From Saccoglossus kowalevskii (taxonomy: Eukaryota > Hemichordata > Enteropneusta > Harrimaniidae), in the NCBI RefSeq assembly GCF_000003605.2, contig NW_003147786.1, positions 6,079-33,419 on the forward strand: a stretch of DNA of 27,341 nucleotides. Reading direction: 5' to 3'. The notes beneath the pieces were generated by a model that was not told where the DNA came from, ran no database searches, and worked only from the letters and a program-made list of their open reading frames with translations. Numbering within the stretch: the stretch's first letter is position 1; every line of letters starts with the position of its first letter. Below are positions 4,814 to 27,340 of this stretch, piece after piece. Position numbers and translations under genes: made by a program.

Positions 4814-5099
4814 GTGGGTATTATTGTTGTATAGGCGATATTATATTAAATTTGCACGTTATATGGATTGGTCATAAGAACGTAAAATGTAGTATATTTC
4901 TATATTATATAGTAAAAACTGAGCTGGATAGTTAATTCATTTATTTAGTTTAGAATATTTGCGGTTATTCAGCTGAATTATGTGCAATTGTTAATAATAT
5001 ACCATATTTAGACAACATTTTAATTACATATAATTACTTCAAAGTAATGTTACTTCTTTTATATTCAGGACAGTCTTAAATAATACAGACACAGATAAA

Positions 5100-5237
5100 A
5101 TGAATCATATAAAAGTTGGTGCTGCTGTCTTTGTGACGCTCGTCTTGCTGAGTACAATTACAGAAGCTACACTTCACTTCTCGGGTAAAGGGAGCCAGAT
5201 GTGGTCTGCAGGAAAGAGGGATCGCCTGGATGATTAT
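5100..5237 (+). CDS. neuropeptide precursor, coding exon 1 (signal peptide + amidated peptide)
   Basis: The exon opens after an acceptor at 5067-5068; translation starts at the first ATG in it, 5100. It encodes 46 residues. Residues 1-23 form a classic signal peptide (Lys-5, hydrophobic VGAAVFVTLVLLS, then cleavage after ITEA). Residues 24-37 (TLHFSGKGSQMWSA) are followed by GKR, the standard amide-donor and dibasic processing site, predicting a 14-residue C-terminally amidated peptide. DRLDDY then begins the associated peptide before the donor TAT|GTGAGT at 5238. LHFS followed by Trp and an amide resembles the AKH/GnRH/corazonin superfamily core (pGlu-x-x-Phe-Ser-x-x-Trp). Here Thr replaces the usual Gln, and Trp sits at position 12 instead of 8. 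GK at positions 6-7 might be an additional monobasic processing site. The secreted amidated peptide call is strong; the family call is tentative. Confidence 0.8.
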
Positions 5238-5995
5238 GTGAGTACATCAAGCTTTTCGTAGACAGTTGATGTTTTTGTGGTTATTGGAATTTCGTTCGAA
5301 CATTGGTCCGGTACTATTGGTTCTTGTAGTTTCTGCAATTATGGTCAACTCGTATGCTAGCCTAAGTGGGTTATTTAGTAGTATGTTCAATTATTTTGCA
5401 ATTGTGTTTTGCAATTATCATAGTAGCGTGAAGTAGCATTAAATTGTATACATCTTCTTACGACCTTATTATAATTTCAAAGAAATAAATATGTATAACC
5501 ATAGTCCCGAAAGCAAAGTATCATGAAGACGCGAACATTAATTAATCAGCGTTTTCCGCTATGTATATTTTATAGTTAACAACAAAATCTTTAGAATAGA
5601 AATTAAACAATAGGTTGTGTCTAATAATGTATATTAAAGGAAATTACACTACGATCTACAACAAAGAAATCTGCACTACAAATAGGCGGGCACGTTTTTA
5701 TTCGTAGATCATTTATGAATTCAGGAAGGTGTGTATTGATGTTCGAGTGCTATTTCGTGTAAGATTTCGGAAATGTTAAGAAATTAAAATAATGACGGTG
5801 TATGTGGATTTGCACCTGTTTCAGCCTCTTTCTCGCACACATGACTAACGTAGTGCGTGACATTAAGTACAATATGTATCGGCATACTCGTGTTAAAAGG
5901 GATATGTGTATTATTGATTCGTACACATAATAAAGCCAGCTGTGTCACTTGGTGCATATTTTGAACATGAAGCTAGTCAATATACGTATTTTATT

Positions 5996-6077
5996 AAAAT
6001 CCGTACTGATCACTGCCAGTTCAATCTTGACATCCTCTTTAAAACCTGCACTGATCATTGCCGCATCAATCTTGAAA
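5996..6077. repeat. two-copy tandem duplication, 45-bp spacing
   Basis: AAAATCCGTACTGATCACTG at 5996 is repeated with changes at 6041 (AAAACCTGCACTGATCATTG). The match continues through TCAATCTTGA in both copies. It is intronic and has no evident function. Confidence 0.7.
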
Positions 6078-7779
6078 TGAATGAACAGCTAAAGATGGCA
6101 AAGCCGATAAACTCATAAATAAAGTGAACAGCCAGATGCACATCACATCGAATTTGGTATTAGGTGATCTGAGATGACTATATAATAAACTGGTACCATA
6201 ATATATAAGGTAAATAAACCCTTTCACAGTGATCAACAACTATGATGAGAAGGGAATACATAAATCTAGGCAGCTGTACGTGAAGCTTCAGTTGTCATAT
6301 TTGTTCGGCCACACAAAACTGTACAGCCGGTTGAAAAGCCCAGCTATATTCGACGCCGATAGAGAAGAGATTTGCTATTAAATTACTCCCCATGCACCAC
6401 ATCCCTTCGCATTTGTAAACGAAATAAATGTACTTGCTTCCTGTGCCGTTTCAAAGAATAATTCAGCCACGTTATTCTATATATATTTTTGCAGCTCGAA
6501 AGTGTTTTTGACGTTTTCGTCATTACGTAAGCATATAGATAGCATATATGAATACACACATTCAAGAAAAGTATACACAACTTGATACTGTCATTACATA
6601 TGTCGTCACGAAACTATAGCAGTTCGCGAAACGTATTGAAATGATATCGTGATTGGCTTGAAGACAAACTGTATTTTGACATCCGATTGATGAATGTATG
6701 CGACTTATGAAAATATCATCTATAACCTTGATTTGACATGAAACACTAAACATCTGCTTGTCGGCAACTGGCGATTATACAATGCAGACATTTTGTATAA
6801 TTTTGCTATTGGCGTTATGGGGTTAACTTATTGTTTATCGCAGCACGTTGCGGGTAACGCGATATCTCTCGAAGTCCGCTCGTTGATCGCCGCTTTAAAC
6901 TGCTCAAGTGGAACTATTTTCCCAATAAACAGTGAATTTGCATACCGTATCAAACTTTAATATCTTTTTAAAAGGCAATGTGTCTTGTACGCTATTTAAC
7001 CTAATATAGAGAACCCTTGAGCAAACGGCTAATTTCCATCACAAACACGATACTTTGATTCATATCAAAAATAACTAGACTTAATGATCAAAGCATTTTG
7101 TTCGAATGACGCTCTTCCGGCGCTATGTTATGGATCATTATTTTGAAATCAACCGTCTATTTCAACAAATTAACTAGTATGTTCTGTGCAGATAAACTGC
7201 ACCTGTGGGGGAATCGTAACATTTATAAATCGTTAACCAGGCAATAAAACAAGCCTTTATCATAAATAACTAACAATTCCCTAGAGATTTTCTTGCATAA
7301 ATACCTAGTACTCAATGGAACACTTCAAGACAACACATGGGTGAACAATATCATCTGCGATCCAGCGTCGTTAGATTCCTGTGTTCACGTTTGGTACACG
7401 GGGCACAAAATGCTGTATGCATGTGTACTATAATGAAAGGCCTGTGGTATTCGTTTGATTATTTGTTTCATTCAAAAGGTGGTACGTTGATTTAATACCG
7501 ATAAGCAAAAATGTTATTTTAGTATAGTACATTCTTTTTATATAGTTAGAAATTACCTTCATCGATACAACAAATTGGAAAACATGTAATGGTGGTCATA
7601 GTCTAACAAGTTTGGTTATCAAGACTAACCACAAGTATAAGTCAGGACAAGTTGTCATTGTGTATCATCATCATGACTAGAATATGAGTTTACACATCGA
7701 GATGTTCAGCATATATAGATAGTTTGGAGCATGTAAGCCTGCTAAGGCAGAATTATGAGTTAGCCTATTAAGTAAAGCA

Positions 7780-7975
7780 GTCAATAGGTTAACATGTAAG
7801 ATTGTCACATGGACTAACATGTTGGAACATGCCGTCATGGGTTAACATGAGATAACGTAACATGAGATAACGTAACATCGTGGGATAACATACGAGTTGA
7901 TGCAGAAACATTGGTTAACACATCAGATAACGCAGCCACATGGGTTGACATACGTGATTATGCAGCTACACATGA
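7780..7975. repeat. degenerate short tandem repeat rich in TAACATG
   Basis: Irregular reiteration of a TTAACATG / GATAACGTAACATG theme. It includes one perfect 15-base duplication (CATGAGATAACGTAA, 7846-7875) and looser copies on both sides. It is intronic minisatellite-like sequence. Confidence 0.6.
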
Positions 7976-8415
7976 TTTCGTCCATATATTTAAAAATAAA
8001 GAAAAATATCATATACTATCATTTAATACATTTTGCTATGTTTTATTTTTACTTATTATTTTTAGATTTTTTTGGATTAGTACAAACTCATTGCGGACAT
8101 CTTGTATCACTGCTGAGTCCAGTGATCCGTGATGATCCCTGACGGTTTTCTGTTCCCGGTTTTCTATTTCTATAATTCTCACGAGAATAGTATATTAATA
8201 CAGGGTGTGATATTTCCCAAATTACGTTAATTACCAAGCAAGAACACAAACGACCCCATATGTGTATGTACATATGTATATTAAACTAGTCTTTATATTC
8301 CTAGGTCTAGAAAGCCAAGGATTATACTAGCAATTGAGACGTTACACGAAGATAGTGTCCGCGTCATCAAAATTATTTATCCTACATGAATATGTATTAT
8401 AGTGATATGAAATCA

Positions 8416-8418
<3 letters not shown>

Positions 8419-8477
<59 letters not shown>
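8419..8477. repeat. (AT)n microsatellite
   Basis: Uninterrupted AT dinucleotide run of about 29 units in the neuropeptide intron, and self-complementary. Confidence 0.97.
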
Positions 8478-8479
<2 letters not shown>

Positions 8480-9129
8480 AGAAAATACGCCGCCTTAATT
8501 TGGTCAGTTAAATGGAGACATGAAGACGACAATTTGATTATATGCGTAAAAAATAAAAGCACTGATGTTTGATTTATGATCACAAGGCCGAGCTGCTATA
8601 ATACGTGACTGGTATATAAATAGCGATGTACTTATACTTTCTGATGTGTTATTTCAAACTGCCATAATTGCGCACACAACAATAATGATAATTTGATCTA
8701 ATGGGACAAACCACCCCTCCTCCAATAATAACGCAAATACTCATTTCTTAAATGTAAATTGCAAATGCGATGGGTTCGGAAGATAAAAATGCCAGAAAGG
8801 CATAGCAGCACCCTGCACGGCTTTCATATATATTATTAAATATTAGTTTTTTTTTGAGTGTTTAACTACCACTGTAAACACATCAAATACAATAAAACAT
8901 ACATTTATACAACTACTATGTGAACAGAATTTATAATCCTAAATATCACTATAATGTGTACTCGGTTCGTTACTCCTTCGTTTTTCCCAATACTCTTTCA
9001 TCCGTGAGGTGAGTGTCCGAGCGCAGTTGAATGATTGTGTGACGAGCGTGACGTACGTCTGAAGCCCAGTCGTCGTCCTAGATTACCTAATTAGTCTCTA
9101 CGGTGTACATGACAGTATGTTCTTTGGTC

Positions 9130-9148
9130 AAAAAAGCGACGCTTTTTT
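9130..9148. repeat. perfect 19-bp palindrome
   Basis: AAAAAAGCG, a single A, then CGCTTTTTT: nine perfectly paired bases each side of a one-base centre. Flanking GGT (9126-9128) and ACC (9151-9153) extend it imperfectly. It could be an inverted-repeat scar or a protein-binding site; no attached gene is seen. Confidence 0.8.
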
Positions 9149-10481
9149 GTACCAGCAAAGGTTAATATGGTACTACCAGAGAAAAATCACAATAATAACA
9201 CGGATCACATTATAATAGAAACAGAATAATATTGACAAACAATTATAACTATTCTTGTTTCAATATATGTGTAGTACTTGTTTTCTTAAGTAGAATTATT
9301 ATTTCCAACTGTATGTAACCAGTGTGGATTACTGAACAACCTATACGTCACACGTGTCTTATACAAGCAGTTGCAGATGATATACGCCGAAGGCTAATTT
9401 ATAACAATCTATGAATTCTTGGGGGTACTGTGAGTTCTGTCGACAAAAACTCGATTTTTGTGAAAGAAGTGTGAAATAACTTAATAAAAAAACACGGATG
9501 GTGATTCTTATTTAAATCCAACCATATTAATTGACGAAAGTAACGTGAGTAGAAGCACGTTCTACAGCTGCCGAACTAAATTTCAACATGTCTTCAAATT
9601 ATGTCTAACTGCTGTGCAAGTTGTTAGTGACTGCGTCTACAAACATTTAATCGCCTTCAGATTTGAAGTATAATCTTTAGCAGCAACAACATTTCAGCAG
9701 CTGTCAACTAAAATCATCACATGGAGTTTGGTTTGGTGCACATTGTCTGGAGTAAACCTACTTTTAAATAAAAGTAAGACAGGTGTTTCAACATTGATTG
9801 TTGTATTCACCCGGCGACATTTCCTGGAAGGATGATACACGGTATAATTGTTTGAAATGTGTTATTTCCGTATGTGTCATTCGTTGGCATGTTTTGATTT
9901 CCTGTAGATTTAGCTTCTCTCACGAAATACGCAACTGCATTGTTGGTGTCCCGCGTTATAGTTGACACTGGAATCACTTGAAATTCATGTGAACTACATG
10001 AGTTAGGCAATGTGTTTTGAGCTTAATACTAGTATATGTTCAAACATGTTTGTTATTTATTTTCTAAATGTAACGATGTAATACAACATACAATTCACTA
10101 ATGCATTCAATGAAATGGCGAATATTCTGCTCTGATTCACTACTGTTTTGGCAAAGTAAATCATGAGCACTGCTGTCTTCTATTTATATCCATAATTCAT
10201 AACTTCCATCGCGGTATAAGAAATTTCTATTACAAGCATATGAGATAAGTAGTGATTCTTTGAATACTTCTAACCCTCCTGTAAATACTAACAAAGTGCA
10301 CGTCACGTTCGTAAAAACGTAAACGGTTTACGCTGCCTCAATCACGCCACATTAAATCAACGTACGCGTGAGTCCAAAAACAACGATCGATCGCAGACGA
10401 AATATGTCTCTGGATGAACACAAAAAGTTAGAAGTACTGCAATGTGGCATTAACTCGTCTCCTGTTGATCGTACAAAACTG

Positions 10482-10534
10482 TACTTATTTATTTATTTAT
10501 TATTATTATTTATTTGAATTATTTATAATAATAA
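10482..10534. repeat. short TTTA/TTA simple-sequence run
   Basis: TTATTTATTTATTTATTATT-type low-complexity tract immediately preceding the 27-bp minisatellite. It is probably slippage-derived. Confidence 0.8.
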
Positions 10535-11720
10535 ATGTTAAGTAACGAATTGTGTTCTTTGAAGTGCAGTTATGAGTTGTATCTTGTAAGGTGTATTTTC
10601 GATTTCTATCATGTAATGTGCAGTTACAAGTCGTATCCTGTGTGGTGCAGTTACGAGTTGTATTCTGTAAAGTGGAGTTACAAGTTGTATCATGTGAGTT
10701 GCAGTTACCAGTTGTATCCTGTATGGTGCAGATACCAGTTGTATCCCGAGAGGTTCAGTAACGAGTTGTAGCCTTTGAAGTGCCTTTATGAGTTGTATCT
10801 TGTAATGTGTCATTACAAGCTGTATCCTGTGAAGTGCAGTTATGATTTGTATAAAGTAATGTGCAGTTACAAGTAGTATCCTGTAAGGTTCAGTAAAGAG
10901 TTGTAGCCTTTGAAGTGCCTTTATGAGTTGTATCTTGTAAGGTGTCATTACAAGCTGTATCCTGTGAAGTGCAGTTATGAGTTGTATCCAGTAATGTGCA
11001 GTTACAAGTTGAATTCTGTAAGATGCAATTACGAGTTGTTCCCTGTGAAATATATTTACGTGTTGTATCATGTAATGTGCAGTAACGAGTTGCGTCCTTT
11101 GAGTTGCAGTTACAAGTTGTATCCTGTAACGTGTAGATAAGAGTTGTATCCTGTAATGTGCAGTTAAAAGTTGTATCATGTGATGTGCAGTTACGGGCTG
11201 TATCCTGTAAAATACATTTAAGAGTTGTATTATGTAATGTGCAGTTAAACGTTGTACCATGTGATGTCTAGTTACGGGTTGTATCCTGTAAAATGCATCT
11301 AAGATTTGTATCATGTAATGTGCAGTTACAAGTTGTATTATGTGAGGTACAGTTACGAGTTGTATTATGTGAGGTACAGTTACGAGTTGTATCCTGTAAG
11401 GTGCAGTTATATATTGTATCCTGTAAGGTGCAGTTATATATTGTATCCTGTAATGAGATTTTATGAGTTGTATCCTGCAATGTGCAGTTACAAGTTGTAT
11501 CCTGTATAGTGCAGTTACGAGGTATATGCTGTTAGGTGCAGTTATGAGTCGTATTCTGAGTTGCATTTAAAAGCTGCGTCTTGTGAGGTACAGTTACGAC
11601 TTGTATCCAGTAAGATGCATTTACGTATTGTATCTTGTGAGGTACAGTTACAAATTGTATAATGTGAAGTTCAGTTACAAGTTGTATCCTGCAATTATGA
11701 GTAGTAGACTGTAAGGTGTG
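10535..11720. repeat. 27-bp minisatellite array
   Basis: About 43 imperfect copies of a 27-base unit (theme GTTGTATCCTGTAATGTGCA followed by GTTACAA). Each unit holds a short GTAA...TTAC dyad. Because 27 is three times nine, several frames on both strands stay open. The longest is a 342-residue minus frame at 10538-11566 built of a nine-residue repeat (theme YRIQLVTAH), and shorter plus-strand frames repeat a CSYELYPVR theme. No signal peptide, promoter or splice signal supports coding, and the array sits in the intron of the plus-strand neuropeptide gene, so it is annotated as repeat only. Confidence 0.93.
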
Positions 11721-12359
11721 GTTACGTGTCGTATCCTGTACGACCTGGTTGTGAGTTGATTGCTGGAGGTGTTATTACTTGTCCCATCGTTTAGGCAGTC
11801 GCGAGTCGTTTCAGGTATATATATTTTGGTTACGGATCATATCCTGCCAAGTGCGGCTACCTCTACTTCACACAAGATGATGTCGTTTTAAGTGTCAGTG
11901 TCGACGTCCTATAATCTTTCCGAGATAGTGTTTACACTTTATATAATATAAGAATACTAGTATACGATACAGGAATGCAGACACCGTCACATCCAGTATA
12001 TGTATTAGAATACAGGAGTAGATGAGAGGACATTTCCATGGCAAGTTCAGTGTATAGACTTGCGGCTATGTTGTGCCGGACGGTTTGATCCGATGTGACA
12101 TGTTAGTGGCTTATAATGATAAGCTAAAACAGATTATTGGCATTGATAGTGAATGGTGAGATTGTCTGTATGAAACAGTTTAAGTGATGATGGATAAGGT
12201 GGTAATGTGAAAAGTCTAATTATCTTTAGTCAATTTAGATAAGCGTTGCATCCACGGGTTGTAAAAACTATAAATATTATCTTACAGTGATGGCAGCTGA
12301 AAAGTATTTGATACACGTGTAAAGCCGCTTAAGATCATTCTTTATTTTATCTTTCTTAG

Positions 12360-12470
12360 GTATCTATATCGGACTTAATTGAAGTCGCAAACAATTTGCG
12401 TGAAGACGTGGAAAAACTAATGGACTTGTTGCAAGCCAAGGCCGAAGAAGAACTGAAAACGAGGCAGTAG
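12360..12470 (+). CDS. neuropeptide precursor, coding exon 2 (associated peptide)
   Basis: Begins after CTTTCTTAG and continues the frame of the first coding exon for 36 residues to a TAG at 12468-12470, giving an 82-residue precursor. The segment (starting VSISDLIEVANNLREDVEKL) is rich in Glu, Leu and Lys, lacks cysteine, has no second dibasic amidation site and is strongly helix-forming. This is the usual character of the hormone-associated peptide that follows the active peptide in AKH-type and GnRH-type precursors. The exon plan (5'UTR exon; signal, hormone and start of associated peptide; rest of associated peptide) also fits those genes. The SIxDL start faintly recalls egg-laying-hormone-type peptides, but the C-terminal amidation signal such peptides require is missing. 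Confidence 0.75.
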   Translation, partial: VSISDLIEVANNLREDVEKLMDLLQAKAEEELKTRQ

Positions 12471-12820: not shown

Positions 12821-12826
12821 AATAAA
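12821..12826 (+). terminator. poly(A) signal AATAAA of the neuropeptide gene
   Basis: A canonical AATAAA lies about 350 bases downstream of the stop. It is followed by CTATTGTACACTAGTGGTCG and then a T/G-rich stretch (TTCTTGTATTCTTGATTTATAG), as expected of a cleavage site with a downstream element. Confidence 0.5.
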
Positions 12827-13267: not shown

Positions 13268-13572
13268 GGTGACCGCCCCATGTTCGGAAATCCCTATGTT
13301 CTGAACTCTCCTTGTTCGTAATCCTTATGTTCCGAAATCCAATGTAAATGGTTTCTGTATTGAGTGTTCTGACACTCAAGACAGTGGGGAGGTATAGCGA
13401 ACGTTGCATATACATCTCATGTTACTATTGACAAACGTGTCTTCTTTGTACAATTGGGTCACGGTGTATTTTTTTTCGACATTTGTTATCAAATTGACGA
13501 GGTCATTAGAGGTCCGTAGGGACGAGCGCTACTGGGTCTTCATGATGGTCCCGGATGTGTCACAGTGTGATA
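13268..13572 (+). repeat. left arm of the long inverted repeat
   Basis: Outer end has about four degenerate 17-base subrepeats (CCATGTTCGGAAATCCCTAT theme, 13277-13343). The arm then runs to the near-perfect palindrome around TCACAGTGTGATA. The 87-residue plus frame at 13404-13667 overlaps it but matches nothing recognised. Confidence 0.75.
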
Positions 13573-13840: not shown

Positions 13841-14364
13841 TGGTGGACGGACGCTTCGGCCGCGGACGTTTCGGCCAAGGATTTCGATCAGGGCGGACGT
13901 TTCGGCCCGTGGCTCTTTTCTGTAAAATAAAGGGTCTTCATTATTTGAAATTCTGTAAATATTTACAGATATATTTAATACATAGTCTATTACGTGATAT
14001 GGGCATTTAGTTGTTTACAGAAATATTTAATACATAGTCTATTACGTGATGTCGGCATAAAGTTGTTTACAGAAATATTAAAACACACTAGTCGTCTATT
14101 TCGTGATTTCAGCGTACATTTGTTTAGTTTTTTTACAGAAATACTTAATACATATTCTATTACGTGATGTCGACATACATTTCTTATATGAATATTTAAT
14201 ACATATTCTATTACGTGATGTCGGCATACAGTTGTTTACAGAAATATTTTATACATAGTCACGCTGTGGCAAAGATCATCTTACCATTGAACTCTACTCA
14301 GGCCGAAACGTATGCCCTGGTCAAAACCCTTGGCCGAAACGTCCGCGGCCGAAATGTCCGGCAT
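13841..14364. mobile_element. MITE-like element with 65-bp TIRs and tandem core
   Basis: Left arm 13843-13907 and right arm 14301-14364 are reverse complements with a handful of mismatches. Shared blocks are TTCGGCCGCGGACGTTTCGG, CCAAGG, a TTT stretch, CAGGGC and ACGTTTCGGCC. Each arm contains the GGACGTTTCGGCC theme three times. The core is a 52-bp tandem array. GTACC occurs just outside both ends (13834-13838 and 14367-14371) and could be a target duplication. There is no room for a transposase, so it would be non-autonomous. Small TIR elements with internal satellite-like arrays are well known in bivalve genomes. It is nested inside the larger inverted-repeat element. Confidence 0.8.
13961..14262. 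repeat. 52-bp tandem array in the MITE core
   Basis: Units start at 13961, 14013 and 14065 (exact 52-base spacing: GTTTACAGAAATATTTAATA, then CATAGTCTATTACGTGATGT and CGGCATAAAGTT). Two or three more diverged copies, with a T-rich insertion near 14127, continue to about 14262. Confidence 0.85.
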
Positions 14365-14826: not shown

Positions 14827-15589
14827 NNNNNNNNNNNNNNNNNNNNNNNNNNNNNNNNNNNNNNNNNNNNNNNNNNNNNNNNNNNNNNNNNNNNNNNNNN
14901 NNNNNNNNNNNNNNNNNNNNNNNNNNNNNNNNNNNNNNNNNNNNNNNNNNNNNNNNNNNNNNNNNNNNNNNNNNNNNNNNNNNNNNNNNNNNNNNNNNNN
15001 NNNNNNNNNNNNNNNNNNNNNNNNNNNNNNNNNNNNNNNNNNNNNNNNNNNNNNNNNNNNNNNNNNNNNNNNNNNNNNNNNNNNNNNNNNNNNNNNNNNN
15101 NNNNNNNNNNNNNNNNNNNNNNNNNNNNNNNNNNNNNNNNNNNNNNNNNNNNNNNNNNNNNNNNNNNNNNNNNNNNNNNNNNNNNNNNNNNNNNNNNNNN
15201 NNNNNNNNNNNNNNNNNNNNNNNNNNNNNNNNNNNNNNNNNNNNNNNNNNNNNNNNNNNNNNNNNNNNNNNNNNNNNNNNNNNNNNNNNNNNNNNNNNNN
15301 NNNNNNNNNNNNNNNNNNNNNNNNNNNNNNNNNNNNNNNNNNNNNNNNNNNNNNNNNNNNNNNNNNNNNNNNNNNNNNNNNNNNNNNNNNNNNNNNNNNN
15401 NNNNNNNNNNNNNNNNNNNNNNNNNNNNNNNNNNNNNNNNNNNNNNNNNNNNNNNNNNNNNNNNNNNNNNNNNNNNNNNNNNNNNNNNNNNNNNNNNNNN
15501 NNNNNNNNNNNNNNNNNNNNNNNNNNNNNNNNNNNNNNNNNNNNNNNNNNNNNNNNNNNNNNNNNNNNNNNNNNNNNNNNNNNNNNNNN
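14827..15589. other. assembly gap (763 N)
   Basis: Unknown bases. The two long apparent reading frames across it are artefacts of N translation. The gap lies inside the 3.7-kb inverted-repeat element, where any transposase would be expected. Confidence 1.
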
Positions 15590-16659: not shown

Positions 16660-16946
16660 TATCACACTGTGATACATCTGGGACCATCCGGAAATCCCCG
16701 TAGCGCTCATCCCCACTGACCTCTAATGCCAATTTGATAACAAATCGTGCAATGCGGTCACCAAATGGCGCTTATTCACGAGAAATTTGCAACGTTCGCT
16801 ATACTTCCCCGCTGTTTCGGGTGCCGGAACACTCAATACAGGAACAATTTATATTGTATTTCGGAACAGAGGGATTTTGGAACATAGAGATTTCGGAACA
16901 TAGGGATTTCGGAATATAGGGATTTCGGAAGATAGGGCTTGAATCC
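16660..16946 (-). repeat. right arm of the long inverted repeat
   Basis: Reverse-complement partner of 13268-13572. Its inner end is the perfect palindrome TATCACACTGTGATA (16660-16674). Its outer end is about five copies of ATTTCGGAACATAGGG (16859-16937). The 167-residue minus frame at 16799-17302 starts outside and runs through the subrepeats, and is not supported as a gene. Confidence 0.75.
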
Positions 16947-22683: not shown

Positions 22684-22976
22684 ATGAAGCCTTAAGTTTT
22701 AATTTTGGGTCATTCTTTTGTGACGCGATTGATTACGTCCATGTCAAGTGGACGCAACGCACGCGCTTTGCCGCTTTCGTTCAAATTTGAGTAATTCGGC
22801 AGAAATAAAACTACATGGTGTCGGAGGGCGTACGGTGGAAAAGATACGGCGTTTCAATTTACACGTCGTTCAGGATTTAAACCCAGACGTGGTTATTTTA
22901 CAGTTGGGTACAAATGATGTAGCATCACTTTCTGCATTCAATGTAGGGTCACGTTTAATAGCTCAGCGCAAGTCGT
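22684..22976 (+). pseudogene. broken SGNH (GDSL-type) hydrolase fragment
   Basis: Two of the family's blocks are recognisable in two different frames. Block I is VLILGHSFVTRL (from 22696; GHS carries the nucleophile Ser). It follows an ATG at 22684 and an in-frame TAA three codons later. After a frameshift near 22744-22750 the second frame reads LHGVGGRTVEKI (the Gly block) and PDVVILQLGTND (the GTND block). The third part with the catalytic Asp-x-x-His is absent; the frame stops at 22985-22987 as the repeated GCGCCCTCTA motif begins. SGNH hydrolases of this type are carried by some animal retrotransposons (for example Ngaro/DIRS-like and certain LINEs) and are multi-copy in molluscs. It is nonfunctional as read. 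Confidence 0.8.
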
Positions 22977-22986
22977 GCGCCCTCTA
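22977..22986 (+). promoter_or_regulatory. GCGCCCTCTA motif, copy 2 (CTCF-core-like)
   Basis: GCGCCCTCTAGTG is a closer match to a CTCF core than copy 1. It lies 85 bases upstream of the SAP-protein start codon and exactly where the SGNH similarity ends. Confidence 0.35.
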
Positions 22987-23070
22987 GTGTCAGAATGATC
23001 TGAACTTTCAGGTAGGGCACAGCAGAGGACACCGTTCATCCTTGCAAAATTCATTCGCGTTGTTATTGTC

Positions 23071-23228
23071 ATGGCGTCGATAAAACTGGTAATCCTATCT
23101 GAGAATGATGTTCCCGGCGCACGTTTCAAAAGGAAGTCTGTTGAAGAACACACTAATGTACAGTTGAGGCGATGGTTAGAGTGCAGAGGGTTGAAAAAGT
23201 CCGGAAATCGATCTGTTCTTATACAGAG
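23071..23228 (+). pseudogene. SAP-domain protein, first coding exon
   Basis: Starts at ATG 23071 and runs 52 codons plus two bases to the donor AG|GTAAC at 23229. Residues 29-53 (NVQLRRWLECRGLKKSGNRS, then VLIQR across the junction) form a SAP helix-extended-loop-helix, a short DNA/chromatin-binding domain. The preceding ILSENDVPGA segment is typical of a mollusc multigene group in which a SAP domain precedes a SWIM zinc finger and sometimes a YqaJ-type nuclease; that group assignment is from memory of such proteins. The exon itself is undamaged, but the gene is interrupted downstream by a retroelement, so it is called a pseudogene or disrupted allele. A GC-richer leader lies upstream. Confidence 0.75.
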
Positions 23229-24243
23229 GTAACATTATTAATAATCGATTAAAATATTCTGTCAAGTTTTCTGTCAATGTTTTGTGTTTTGCGTCATTCT
23301 GTGATGATATTTTTTTATTCAGAATGTTAGTAACATGTTGTCAAAATTGTTTTATGTCATTATTCTAAAAATGAACGTTTAATTTAGCGACAAGGTCGAC
23401 TAATAACGGCTACTGCTAGTACTGCGTTCTGACGTTTGTGTTCGGCCGTATTTTCATTTTAGTAATGATATTTCTTGATACCAAGTGGCTTTTTATGTGC
23501 ATTGATTGCAGCCATTGCAGGAACGATATCCATTTGCACTGAATCTATTTACTGACGTCAATACTTGCTGTTAATAATATGAAGAATGGCCCACAAAAAT
23601 TCATGGTTAACTTTTTTTTACTACCACAATATTTTCCCGCCAAAAATTGTGTTTAAAAATTCTTGCATTAAATAAACTTTCTTGAATTTCTCATTTCATT
23701 TTGGTCATGAACAGAGTAGAAATGTTCATTGTAAACAGGTATTAATGGGTAGATTTGAAATGAATTTCTGTTGTGAAAAGTGACCAAAGTTGACAGTGGG
23801 AGTGATAGAATAATAATAACTAAATAGCTTGTGGGGGGGGTCCTTCGTTATTTTTAGCTTGAAAACGCTAGGTTGTTATCAAATTATTTGTTTACTTTCC
23901 TGCCTTGAGTTTAGTTATTATAAAATGCAGTACACTGATAAATAGCAAGTATTGACTGGTGAAAAAAATGCCTGACCCAAACTCCAATGTTTTTACCTGC
24001 CATTCAAGTTGGCATTGTTGGGCAAGTTTCTGTATTTTTATCATGTGTTTGTGCTTTTATCATTGCATATTGAAATAGCCAAATTTATATAACAAAAAAT
24101 TGCCACTATACTATTGAGTTAATCAGAGGGCACAGTATTAAGATAAAAATACAAATAAAGCAGCTAAATAAAATACGATAAATCTGCATTTTCAATAACT
24201 AATTAACTTATTTAAAAATAAAAATAAACTGATTTTTGTTCAG
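23229..24243 (+). other. intron of the SAP-domain gene
   Basis: Donor GTAAC at 23229 and acceptor TTTTTGTTCAG ending at 24243; phase 2, restoring an Arg codon (AG|G). It is AT-rich, with a G8 run near 23834. No other feature was recognised. Confidence 0.75.
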
Positions 24244-25044: not shown

Positions 25045-25480
25045 TCACACATTGTTCAAGTCTTGTATTTTACAGCGGGCTATAGCTGCTGCATTTCGCG
25101 TTGATCTTCGTAGAGTAGTGCCACGCTGATTATGTGTTACGTCCATGTGAGTTTCATTATTGAGAACTTCGGTAGGCGTGATGTTTATCTTATCCTTCAA
25201 AGCATGAAAGACGAATCGAATAAGCCTGGAACCTATTAATGCTGCCATAAGTTCAAGGCGCGGTAAAGTCATTTCTTTGAGTGGCGCAACACGTGTCTTA
25301 GAAATAACTAACGAGGTCTGTCGATCTTGACGTAGATACACGGCAGCACCGTATGCTTTAGGGCTAGCATCAACAAACACATGGAGTTCGTGGACATCGG
25401 TAGACTTAGTGTGATCAGCGAAGTATTTCCTGTTTATTGTAATGTCCGTACTGGCTACAACATCTGATATTATCTCCTCT
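25045..25480 (-). pseudogene. BEL/Pao Pol: RNase H remnant fused to Pol C-terminal tail
   Basis: Minus-strand frame open after a TGA (25482-25480). The RNase H start is clear: VFVDASPKAYGAAVY carries the first catalytic Asp and LPRLELMAALIGSRL the Glu. At about 25171 similarity to RNase H ends after KINITPT and continues in frame with EVLNNETH and a basic tail containing TLRRSTRNAAA, the kind of Ser/Arg-rich end that closes BEL/Pao Pol after integrase. The second half of RNase H and the whole integrase (zinc-binding and DDE domains) are therefore deleted without breaking the frame. The usual element would have well over a kilobase more here. Confidence 0.8.
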
Positions 25481-25482
25481 CA

Positions 25483-25714
25483 TTTGTTTGTTTGTATATC
25501 GTCAAGCGGTTCATCCCACTCAAGGTTTTCCTTCCAGAGATGTTGAATAAATATCTTAGCTTTTATGAGCACTGGTCACAGGTGTCAGGTGTCCCAATGG
25601 GTCAAACAAACTTGAGACGACTTTAGTAACATAGCGTTTAGTGACTCTGTGGTCCGGATTATGTCCAGTGAGTTTCCTGATAGCAAGTACATCGGAGTCA
25701 GTTTGCCAGTGAAT
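25483..25714 (-). pseudogene. BEL/Pao Pol: RT thumb/connection, frameshifted
   Basis: Links the RT to RNase H. Recognisable segments are LAIRKLTGHNPD, VVSSLFDPLGHL and FIQHLWKENLEWDEPL, but they fall in two frames. A small duplication near 25569-25578 shifts the frame, and a TGA at 25482-25480 replaces a codon that is normally Trp in this family's spacing. The SSLFDPLGHL block is characteristic of BEL/Pao RT. Confidence 0.75.
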
Positions 25715-26324
25715 AGAGGATACCAACGTTGGTGTTCATTTCTAGGGCGTTGTCTTTTTCAGCAAGTGCGCGTATTTCTTTACAGTTTGATGACCAAGAG
25801 CGGAGATTGAAACCAGATGATCTCATCAGGGCGTTAGCATCATGATAGTATTTCTCCGCTTCTGTTACGTTTTCAGTCCCAGAAACAACGTTATCTACGT
25901 AGATATTATCTTTCAGATCAGCGGAAGTAGGAATCGTATTGTTGGCTTCTAAGTGAGTTTTCAATACCGCATTCAAAATAAATGGTGAACAAACTGCCCC
26001 GAAAAGTACCGATTTAAATTGAAACACACGGAATGTACTTTCAGGGTTGGTAGGGTCCGTTAACCACAAGAATTTCGTGAATTCGCGATCCTCTTCATGT
26101 AAGCGCACATTAAGAAAGGCCTTCTCGATATCGCTGAAGATCGCAATGTCATTAATCCGGAACTGGAGCAAAATGGCTGTTAAACTGTTCAATAGCGGAG
26201 GCCCAGTTTGTAGACAATCATTTAAGCTGGGATAATCGTTTGACTGTCTACAGCTACAGTCGTAAACTACACGTATCGGCGTTGTAGTTGAATCCTTTTT
26301 AACCGGGCGATGAGGTAGATAATG
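25698..26324 (-). pseudogene. BEL/Pao reverse transcriptase core
   Basis: Minus-strand frame entered by a frameshift near 26323-26328 and left by another near 25715. It carries RT motif A (FSDIEKAFLNVRL, catalytic Asp), the block FLWLTDPTNPESTFRVFQF, FGAVCSPFILNAVL (motif B region) and motif C as YVDNVVSG, the YVDN form usual in BEL/Pao. Catalytic residues are intact but the frame is separated from protease upstream and from RNase H downstream. Confidence 0.88.
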
Positions 26325-27340
26325 ACCACATTAGCATCATCGTCCACCACTTCTTCAATAAAATCACGTGCCAATTGATCGTTGATTATTTTGTCGTATG
26401 TTTGCAGTAAATCTGGTGTTAAACTACGTACCATGGAGCGGGTACGTTTATCGCTAATTCGATAATTTGTTGGCAGTGGTGCGTGGTCCGATTTCCACGG
26501 TAGTTTGGCGATATATTTCCCATCCTCACTTCGTAAATGCGTATCACGGTACGATTCAAAATCATTTTCTTTAAGGCATTTCCCACTTGCGTCATTCTTA
26601 ATACCGATTGTCTTCAGTTCCCAATAATTCTGAAGTTTCGTTTCTTCCTCTCGTGTAGTTGTAGCAATATGCAAAATAGTAGTATTGATATTTGAACTTT
26701 TCTTACCAGATGGTCCCGAAAGCAAATATCCAAACTTAGACCAAACAGCTGTAGGTCCCGGTCCCCTGATGACGTGGTCTTCGATAAAATCCCAATAATA
26801 ATCAGCTCCAATTAACACAGAAATTTGGAATGAATCAGCTTTAGAGACCGGGTGCGCCAGTTTCAGTCCACGTAAATGAGGCAAGTTTACGAGCGAGTGT
26901 GTTATCAGATTCGACAGAGGCGCACATATTTCAGGAACTATAAAAGCGCTAATGGTGAGAACTCCAAAGAGAATTTGGATTTGAAAAGTTCCCACATCAA
27001 ATGATCTGACATTCGAGTCAGTGTCTCCAAACGTTGCAAGTTGTATCATCTCTGAAGCGACGGGTTTCACATTCAGTTTCTCGGCGGTTTCTCGGGTGAC
27101 AAATGACCGGGTTGCGCCTTCATCAAAAAGTATAGTCGCGTTTATTATGTCTGTATTCACGGAAATAGTTGCTACGGCAGTTTTTAATAAGACTGGCTCA
27201 GCGCGCGGAACATCTTTCGTCTTTGCGAAGTTCACGTGAGTCGGAGTAGGAGGTTGATTTTGTACAGCAGCGGGTTGGGTTTTGCCTGGTGTCCAATTGT
27301 TGGTAGTGCAAAGCGAAGTATGGTGTTTACGTGAACATAG
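26267..27340 (-). pseudogene. BEL/Pao Gag zinc-knuckle end and aspartic protease
   Basis: Open from the right window edge to a stop at 26269-26267. The first visible part, CSRKHHTSLC (27337-27308), is the end of the Gag CCHC-type zinc knuckle region, followed by a Pro/Gln/Thr-rich linker. The retropepsin-like domain holds ATILFDEGATRSFVT, with the catalytic Asp in the DEGA form typical of BEL/Pao (about 27124). Further on are the linker FEVGTF-like region, LIGADYYWDF and the block IYDKII/FIEEVVDDD that leads into RT. The final 18 residues are out of frame after a single-base shift near 26323-26328. The frame has no start codon of its own in the window; Gag and Pol appear to share it. Confidence 0.85.

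Follow-up and report, generated by a model that had tools for sequence, protein, structure and literature searches.

A putative second corazonin-type neuropeptide gene in the hemichordate Saccoglossus kowalevskii

Results

Within a 27,341-nucleotide stretch of the Saccoglossus kowalevskii genome (RefSeq assembly GCF_000003605.2, contig NW_003147786.1, positions 6,079 to 33,419; hereafter the window), the plus strand carries a two-exon gene that looks, on its sequence, complete and of the small amidated neuropeptide type, and that is likely a second, divergent corazonin-type (CRZ-type) gene of this hemichordate, paralogous to the gene for the published S. kowalevskii corazonin, Sk-CRZ. On re-reading the sequence, the 82-residue precursor described in an initial annotation was recovered as claimed (ATG at 5100, stop at 12470), including its signal peptide, 14-residue peptide, GKR site, helical acidic tail and 5237/12360 exon junction. 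The precursor runs MNHIKVGAAVFVTLVLLSTITEA-TLHFSGKGSQMWSA-GKR-DRLDDY in exon 1 and continues with VSISDLIEVANNLREDVEKLMDLLQAKAEEELKTRQ and the stop in exon 2. Coding exon 1 (5100..5237; 46 codons from the ATG to a phase-0 donor, identified from the sequence and from its own match in the assembly) encodes a 23-residue signal peptide (5100..5168), the predicted 14-residue peptide TLHFSGKGSQMWSA (5169..5210, alignable to ambulacrarian corazonins with no gap) and GKR (5211..5219), that is, an amidation glycine plus a dibasic cleavage site. The end of the signal peptide was placed by analogy with the A/Q cleavage in the Sk-CRZ precursor; a simple cleavage rule would cut two residues earlier (TIT/EATLHF). 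The 7.1-kb phase-0 intron (5238..12359; GTGAGT...TTTCTTAG) lies between the donor TAT/GTGAGT at 5237/5238 and the acceptor TTTATCTTTCTTAG/G at 12359/12360, and coding exon 2 (12360..12470) encodes a helical, acidic C-terminal peptide of 36 residues and the TAG stop. A possible 5' untranslated part of exon 1 (5069..5099) would follow directly on an acceptor-like TATTCAG (5062-5068); downstream of the stop lie an ATTAAA motif of the polyadenylation type (12542) and an AATAAA (12821..12826), which is the likely polyadenylation signal. The intron also contains a 27-bp minisatellite of approximately 42 copies (10564-11691); on the minus strand it leaves a repetitive frame open for 342 codons, which matched no Pfam family above cut-off.

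Both strands of the window were scanned for exons combining a Met, a hydrophobic core, small residues at -3/-1 and a G[KR][KR] 6-16 residues further on, with 60 dinucleotide shuffles of the window (Ns removed) as a control. One match was found, exon 1 of the window gene, relative to a shuffle mean of 0.083, and 55 of the 60 shuffles contained no comparable exon. The same place was the only one in the window to match aromatic-[STKQ]-...-W-...-G[KR][KR] in any of six frames, and exon 2 ranked first in helix content among 123 plus-strand candidates with an acceptor and an open frame (its best stretch reached 19 of 20 residues, that of the runner-up 16). The repeat-rich surroundings would suit a pseudogene or two open frames paired by chance, but either reading is highly improbable given these ranks and shuffles, an intact signal peptide and cleavage site, consensus splice sites and a polyadenylation signal. 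When the precursor was searched against the whole 572-Mb assembly (E up to 10), nothing beyond its own two exons was matched, a result that rules out close copies only, because the Sk-CRZ gene was also missed by this search. Pfam returned only IF3_N for the precursor (E 0.084; 13.5 bits, below the cut-off of 26.9), and Rfam had no matches in the window.

The Sk-CRZ gene was located in the same assembly with a DNA pattern coding for HF..K[GDE]...W, which gave 9 forward and 6 reverse matches in the genome, compared with 7 for its reversed control. In only 2 of these 15 were GKR and a signal peptide both present, namely in the window gene and in an exon at C3808:52836 (L018 1414-1563), which reads MNRSTAKTTCLILALFVLLQLLSHGQA-QPHFSLKDRYRWKP-GKR-ANAGLR/GTAAGT. 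The peptide QPHFSLKDRYRWKP is identical at every residue to the S. kowalevskii corazonin given in the table of PMC5592718 (pQPHFSLKDRYRWKP-NH2). A looser corazonin pattern gave about equal numbers of matches in the genome (272) and in its reversed control (257). The window gene and Sk-CRZ have an exon plan in common, in which a signal peptide ending in Ala is followed by a 14-mer, GKR, exactly six residues and a phase-0 donor, and their pro regions are similar both within exon 1 (z 4.3, P = 0.0006) and as a whole (z 3.8, P = 0.002). Both also appear to have a short C-terminal exon, which for Sk-CRZ was assigned to LPATLSLLLKQLNSDYRTRMALNDIDNMFNSAEDDAVKEEY at C3808:82702. This candidate was picked by eye from 165 (rank 2 for similarity to window exon 2, rank 4 for helix content) and would imply an intron of approximately 30 kb, of which 22 kb is N; the real Sk-CRZ exon 2 may lie elsewhere, inside the N run.

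We compared TLHFSGKGSQMWSA with four ambulacrarian corazonins: Sk-CRZ, the echinoderm peptides HNTFTMGGQNRWKAG-NH2 and HNTFSFKGRSRYFP-NH2 (PMC5592718) and a further echinoderm peptide, HNTYSMKGKYRWRA(G) (PMC6586643). All are of equal length and align with it without gaps, with F/Y4 and S/T5 matched in 4 of 4, and K7, G8 and W12 in 3 of 4 each (the urchin peptide has Tyr at 12). Like the members of this family, the window precursor carries one peptide, immediately behind the signal peptide (with the cleavage site placed as above), an amidation Gly and a dibasic site, and the peptide has an aromatic-Ser/Thr pair at 4-5, Trp/Tyr at 12 and a six-residue spacer. Ungapped shuffle P values were 0.00015 for Sk-CRZ, 0.0016 for the sea-cucumber peptide (AjCRZ), 0.010 for the starfish peptide (ArCRZ) and 0.014 for the urchin peptide (SpCRZ), or 0.0007 for the summed scores. 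Sk-CRZ is the closest relative found, with identical H3, F4, S5, K7 and W12, although it has an N-terminal Gln where the window peptide has Thr, and LKDRYR in the middle where the window peptide has GKGSQM. The echinoderm corazonins resemble the window peptide in having no N-terminal Gln, in the six-residue spacer, in K7-G8 (Aj and Sp) and in a W-x-A-G ending (Aj and Ar), and differ from it in having His1 (all three) and longer precursors (99 residues in Ar and 111 in Aj, versus 82). Relatives without N-terminal Gln have likewise been described from Xenoturbella and nemertodermatids (PMC6188537), and further literature was consulted (PMC8557429, PMC5024129, PMC4772807, PMC12002301, PMC9793003, PMC5627052, PMC5626854, PMC10508912).

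Gapped shuffle tests were used to weigh the corazonins against other members of the superfamily. The highest z scores were with corazonins (Saccoglossus, 4.1; sea cucumber, 3.6), whereas the two others (starfish, 2.3; urchin, 2.2) scored no better than starfish GnRH (2.8) or the AKHs of limpet and sea hare (both 2.6); molluscan GnRHs reached 2.0-2.5, an arthropod corazonin 1.3 and oyster AKH 0.5. These scores support a link to the GnRH/AKH/corazonin superfamily, as initially proposed, with the best match to corazonin; the AKH label is not supported. By the published definition of a true AKH, the window peptide has one of the expected features (FS/FT/YS at 4-5) and departs from the others, having 14 residues and Thr1 instead of 8-10 residues with pGln1, and Trp12 with a WSA ending instead of Trp8 with a W, WG or WGX amide. 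Molluscan and arthropod AKHs resemble the window peptide in FS at 4-5, a Trp and the amide (and the C. gigas gene likewise has one phase-0 intron), but they are 8-10 residues long, begin with pGlu1, have Trp8 and end in WGX. The annelid peptide proto-AKH, pQFSFSLPGKWGN-NH2 (C. teleta GnRH-2, P. dumerilii proto-AKH-1), has FS at 4-5 and a lengthened spacer (4), yet it begins with pGlu1 and was rejected as a match at a z of only 0.8. The bombesin type was likewise rejected, because all three bombesin-type peptides compared gave negative z scores.

Mitochondrial sequence bears on the origin of the assembly, which the initial annotation had taken to be from a bivalve. Contig C4830 (17,037 bp) carries mitochondrial genes in the order cox2-atp6-cox3-nd3-nd4L-nd4-nd5-cob, then -nd6, 12S, 16S, nd2, nd1 and -cox1, with names given by eye and backed by Pfam for cox1, nd4, nd5 and cob. 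As reported in PMC2697986, nd5 adjoins cob in Xenoturbella and two hemichordates, ATA codes for Ile in echinoderms and hemichordates (and not in Xenoturbella), and AAA codes for Lys in Saccoglossus. Codon tests favoured ATA=Ile with AAA=Lys, by a few bits each, for nd5 (231.3/131.3 bits, versus 227.7/131.3 with table 5 and 224.2/123.5 with table 9), nd4 (251.4/87.6, versus 249/85.1 and 243.9/87.5) and cob (273.7/155.4/118.4, versus 269.5/154.4/117.7 and 272.9/153.5/115.9); for cox1, which was compared under tables 5, 9 and 2 only, table 9 was best (504.4 versus 495). This hemichordate-like contig, together with the presence of Sk-CRZ in the assembly, rules out a bivalve origin. The contig also departs from the expected order, in that cox1 is encoded on the minus strand and nd2 comes ahead of nd1 (L005 4352-5941 and 1917-4257), reflecting either a real rearrangement or misassembly.

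Discussion

We consider it likely that the window gene is a corazonin-type paralogue of Sk-CRZ, on the basis of four observations: its gene anatomy, the presence of a relative elsewhere in this genome, the exon plan in common and the peptide similarity. Several points weigh against this assignment. The P values are optimistic, because the comparison families were picked after the peptide was seen; the 14-residue match is short; a Thr N terminus occurs in 0 of the 4 corazonins compared; in the gapped test, half of those corazonins stood no higher than AKH or starfish GnRH; signal peptides of the two genes are only weakly alike (P = 0.06); and the similarity of window exon 2 to the inferred Sk-CRZ exon 2 is not beyond chance (P = 0.33). 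In addition, a comparison of contigs C3808 and C3818 revealed no long common segment, only three short matches of 59-89 bases (C3808 entered the comparison from 32.9 kb onwards; N made up 59,337 of its 112,791 bases and 14,878 of the 59,442 from C3818). The short peptide, the Thr and the unlike C-terminal exon would also suit an unrelated amidated neuropeptide with a convergent HFS...W; we regard such convergence as improbable, because the match to Sk-CRZ is equal in length and free of gaps and this gene of the same genome has exactly the exon geometry of the window gene, and in view of shuffle P values of 0.00015-0.014 with each of four corazonins.

Intron number bears on a further alternative, namely that the window gene is a hemichordate GnRH-type (GnRH/AKH) precursor signalling via a GnRH-type receptor. 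The single phase-0 intron after the peptide is a corazonin trait by the count in PMC10321317, in which deuterostome CRZ genes have one phase-0 coding intron and deuterostome GnRH genes two; Tian 2016 (PMC4923880) gives the reverse count, also contrary to our assignment, and the intron argument is conditional because these two sources disagree. The latter source further describes GnRH and CRZ ligands as hard to separate by sequence, which, with the z scores for starfish GnRH and for limpet and sea-hare AKH, lends the GnRH-type alternative some plausibility. Genome patterns for molluscan and echinoderm GnRH returned 0 matches each (controls, 0 and 2), a point in favour of this alternative but one that leaves room for a GnRH gene in this hemichordate with a different sequence, and the published S. 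kowalevskii GnRH precursor could in principle be the window gene, in which case the gene would already be known under the GnRH name. Nevertheless, two corazonins score higher, and the window peptide has neither an N-terminal Gln nor a W-x-P-G ending, such that a GnRH-type precursor appears unlikely. A GnRH/CRZ receptor motif pattern gave 0 matches, a null that is uninformative, since such a motif would be masked by an intron or by divergence.

Precursors of this general kind are cut at KR, amidated and secreted. If the corazonin-type assignment holds, the window precursor would enter the secretory pathway of neurosecretory cells and lose its signal peptide; a prohormone convertase would then cut after GKR, a carboxypeptidase would trim KR, and PAM would turn the glycine into an amide. 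The product would probably be the amidated 14-mer, TLHFSGKGSQMWSA-NH2, acting on a corazonin-type or related GnRH-type G-protein-coupled receptor; from the sequence we infer its expression, processing, receptor and action. By analogy with ArCRZ, which contracts starfish muscle preparations (PMC9974683), the peptide is probably a myoexcitatory or modulatory transmitter, and a modulatory role similar to that of ArCRZ is our best guess.

Corazonin is a relative of the human reproductive hormone GnRH. The initial annotation was right that the window peptide has four extra residues between Ser and Trp (six, versus two in AKH), but the expanded spacing and the non-Gln N terminus, which it read as anomalies pointing to either a new hormone branch or convergence, are both known in the ambulacrarian corazonin family: echinoderm corazonins have both, the six-residue spacer is also that of Sk-CRZ (PMC5592718, PMC6586643), and a spacing that would be odd for a clam is ordinary here. 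The new point would be that one hemichordate has another corazonin-type gene in addition to Sk-CRZ; full-text literature searches, covering main text as opposed to figures and supplements, did not find the window peptide in print. Ambulacrarian corazonins have been taken as evidence that the GnRH/corazonin split predates the protostome-deuterostome divergence (PMC4923880), and a second gene in an acorn worm would mean that deuterostomes went on adding to the set of ligands. More tentatively, and with considerable doubt, the two hemichordate ligands may stem from an old duplication after which the second lost its pyroglutamate cap, changed its core and gained its own receptor and role; if true, the GnRH/corazonin superfamily would have expanded on the deuterostome side, in parallel with the arthropod AKH/ACP split. 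A second gene would also offer a natural test of how N-terminal cap and core relate to receptor choice, and it warns that surveys assuming one ligand per species can overlook paralogues.

Other features of the window

The window begins with a 22-bp tandem array of approximately 54 copies (1-1202). Downstream of the gene, an inverted repeat (13276-13411 and 16785-16921, approximately 3.4 kb apart; longest arms 92 nt, 85%) brackets an assembly gap (an N run, 14827-15589) and is probably a mobile element. A palindromic element (13848-14360) has ends resembling GGCCGAAACGTCC and arms of 60 nt (88%), with 52-bp repeats inside it. Adjoining frames at 22733-23229 are probably a transposable-element remnant; they matched a SAP domain above cut-off, whereas their GDSL-lipase-like match fell below its own. 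Pieces of a Pao-type retroelement (Peptidase_A17, RVT_1) occupy 25045-26330 on the minus strand, and more retroelement-like minus-strand frames occur farther along the contig.

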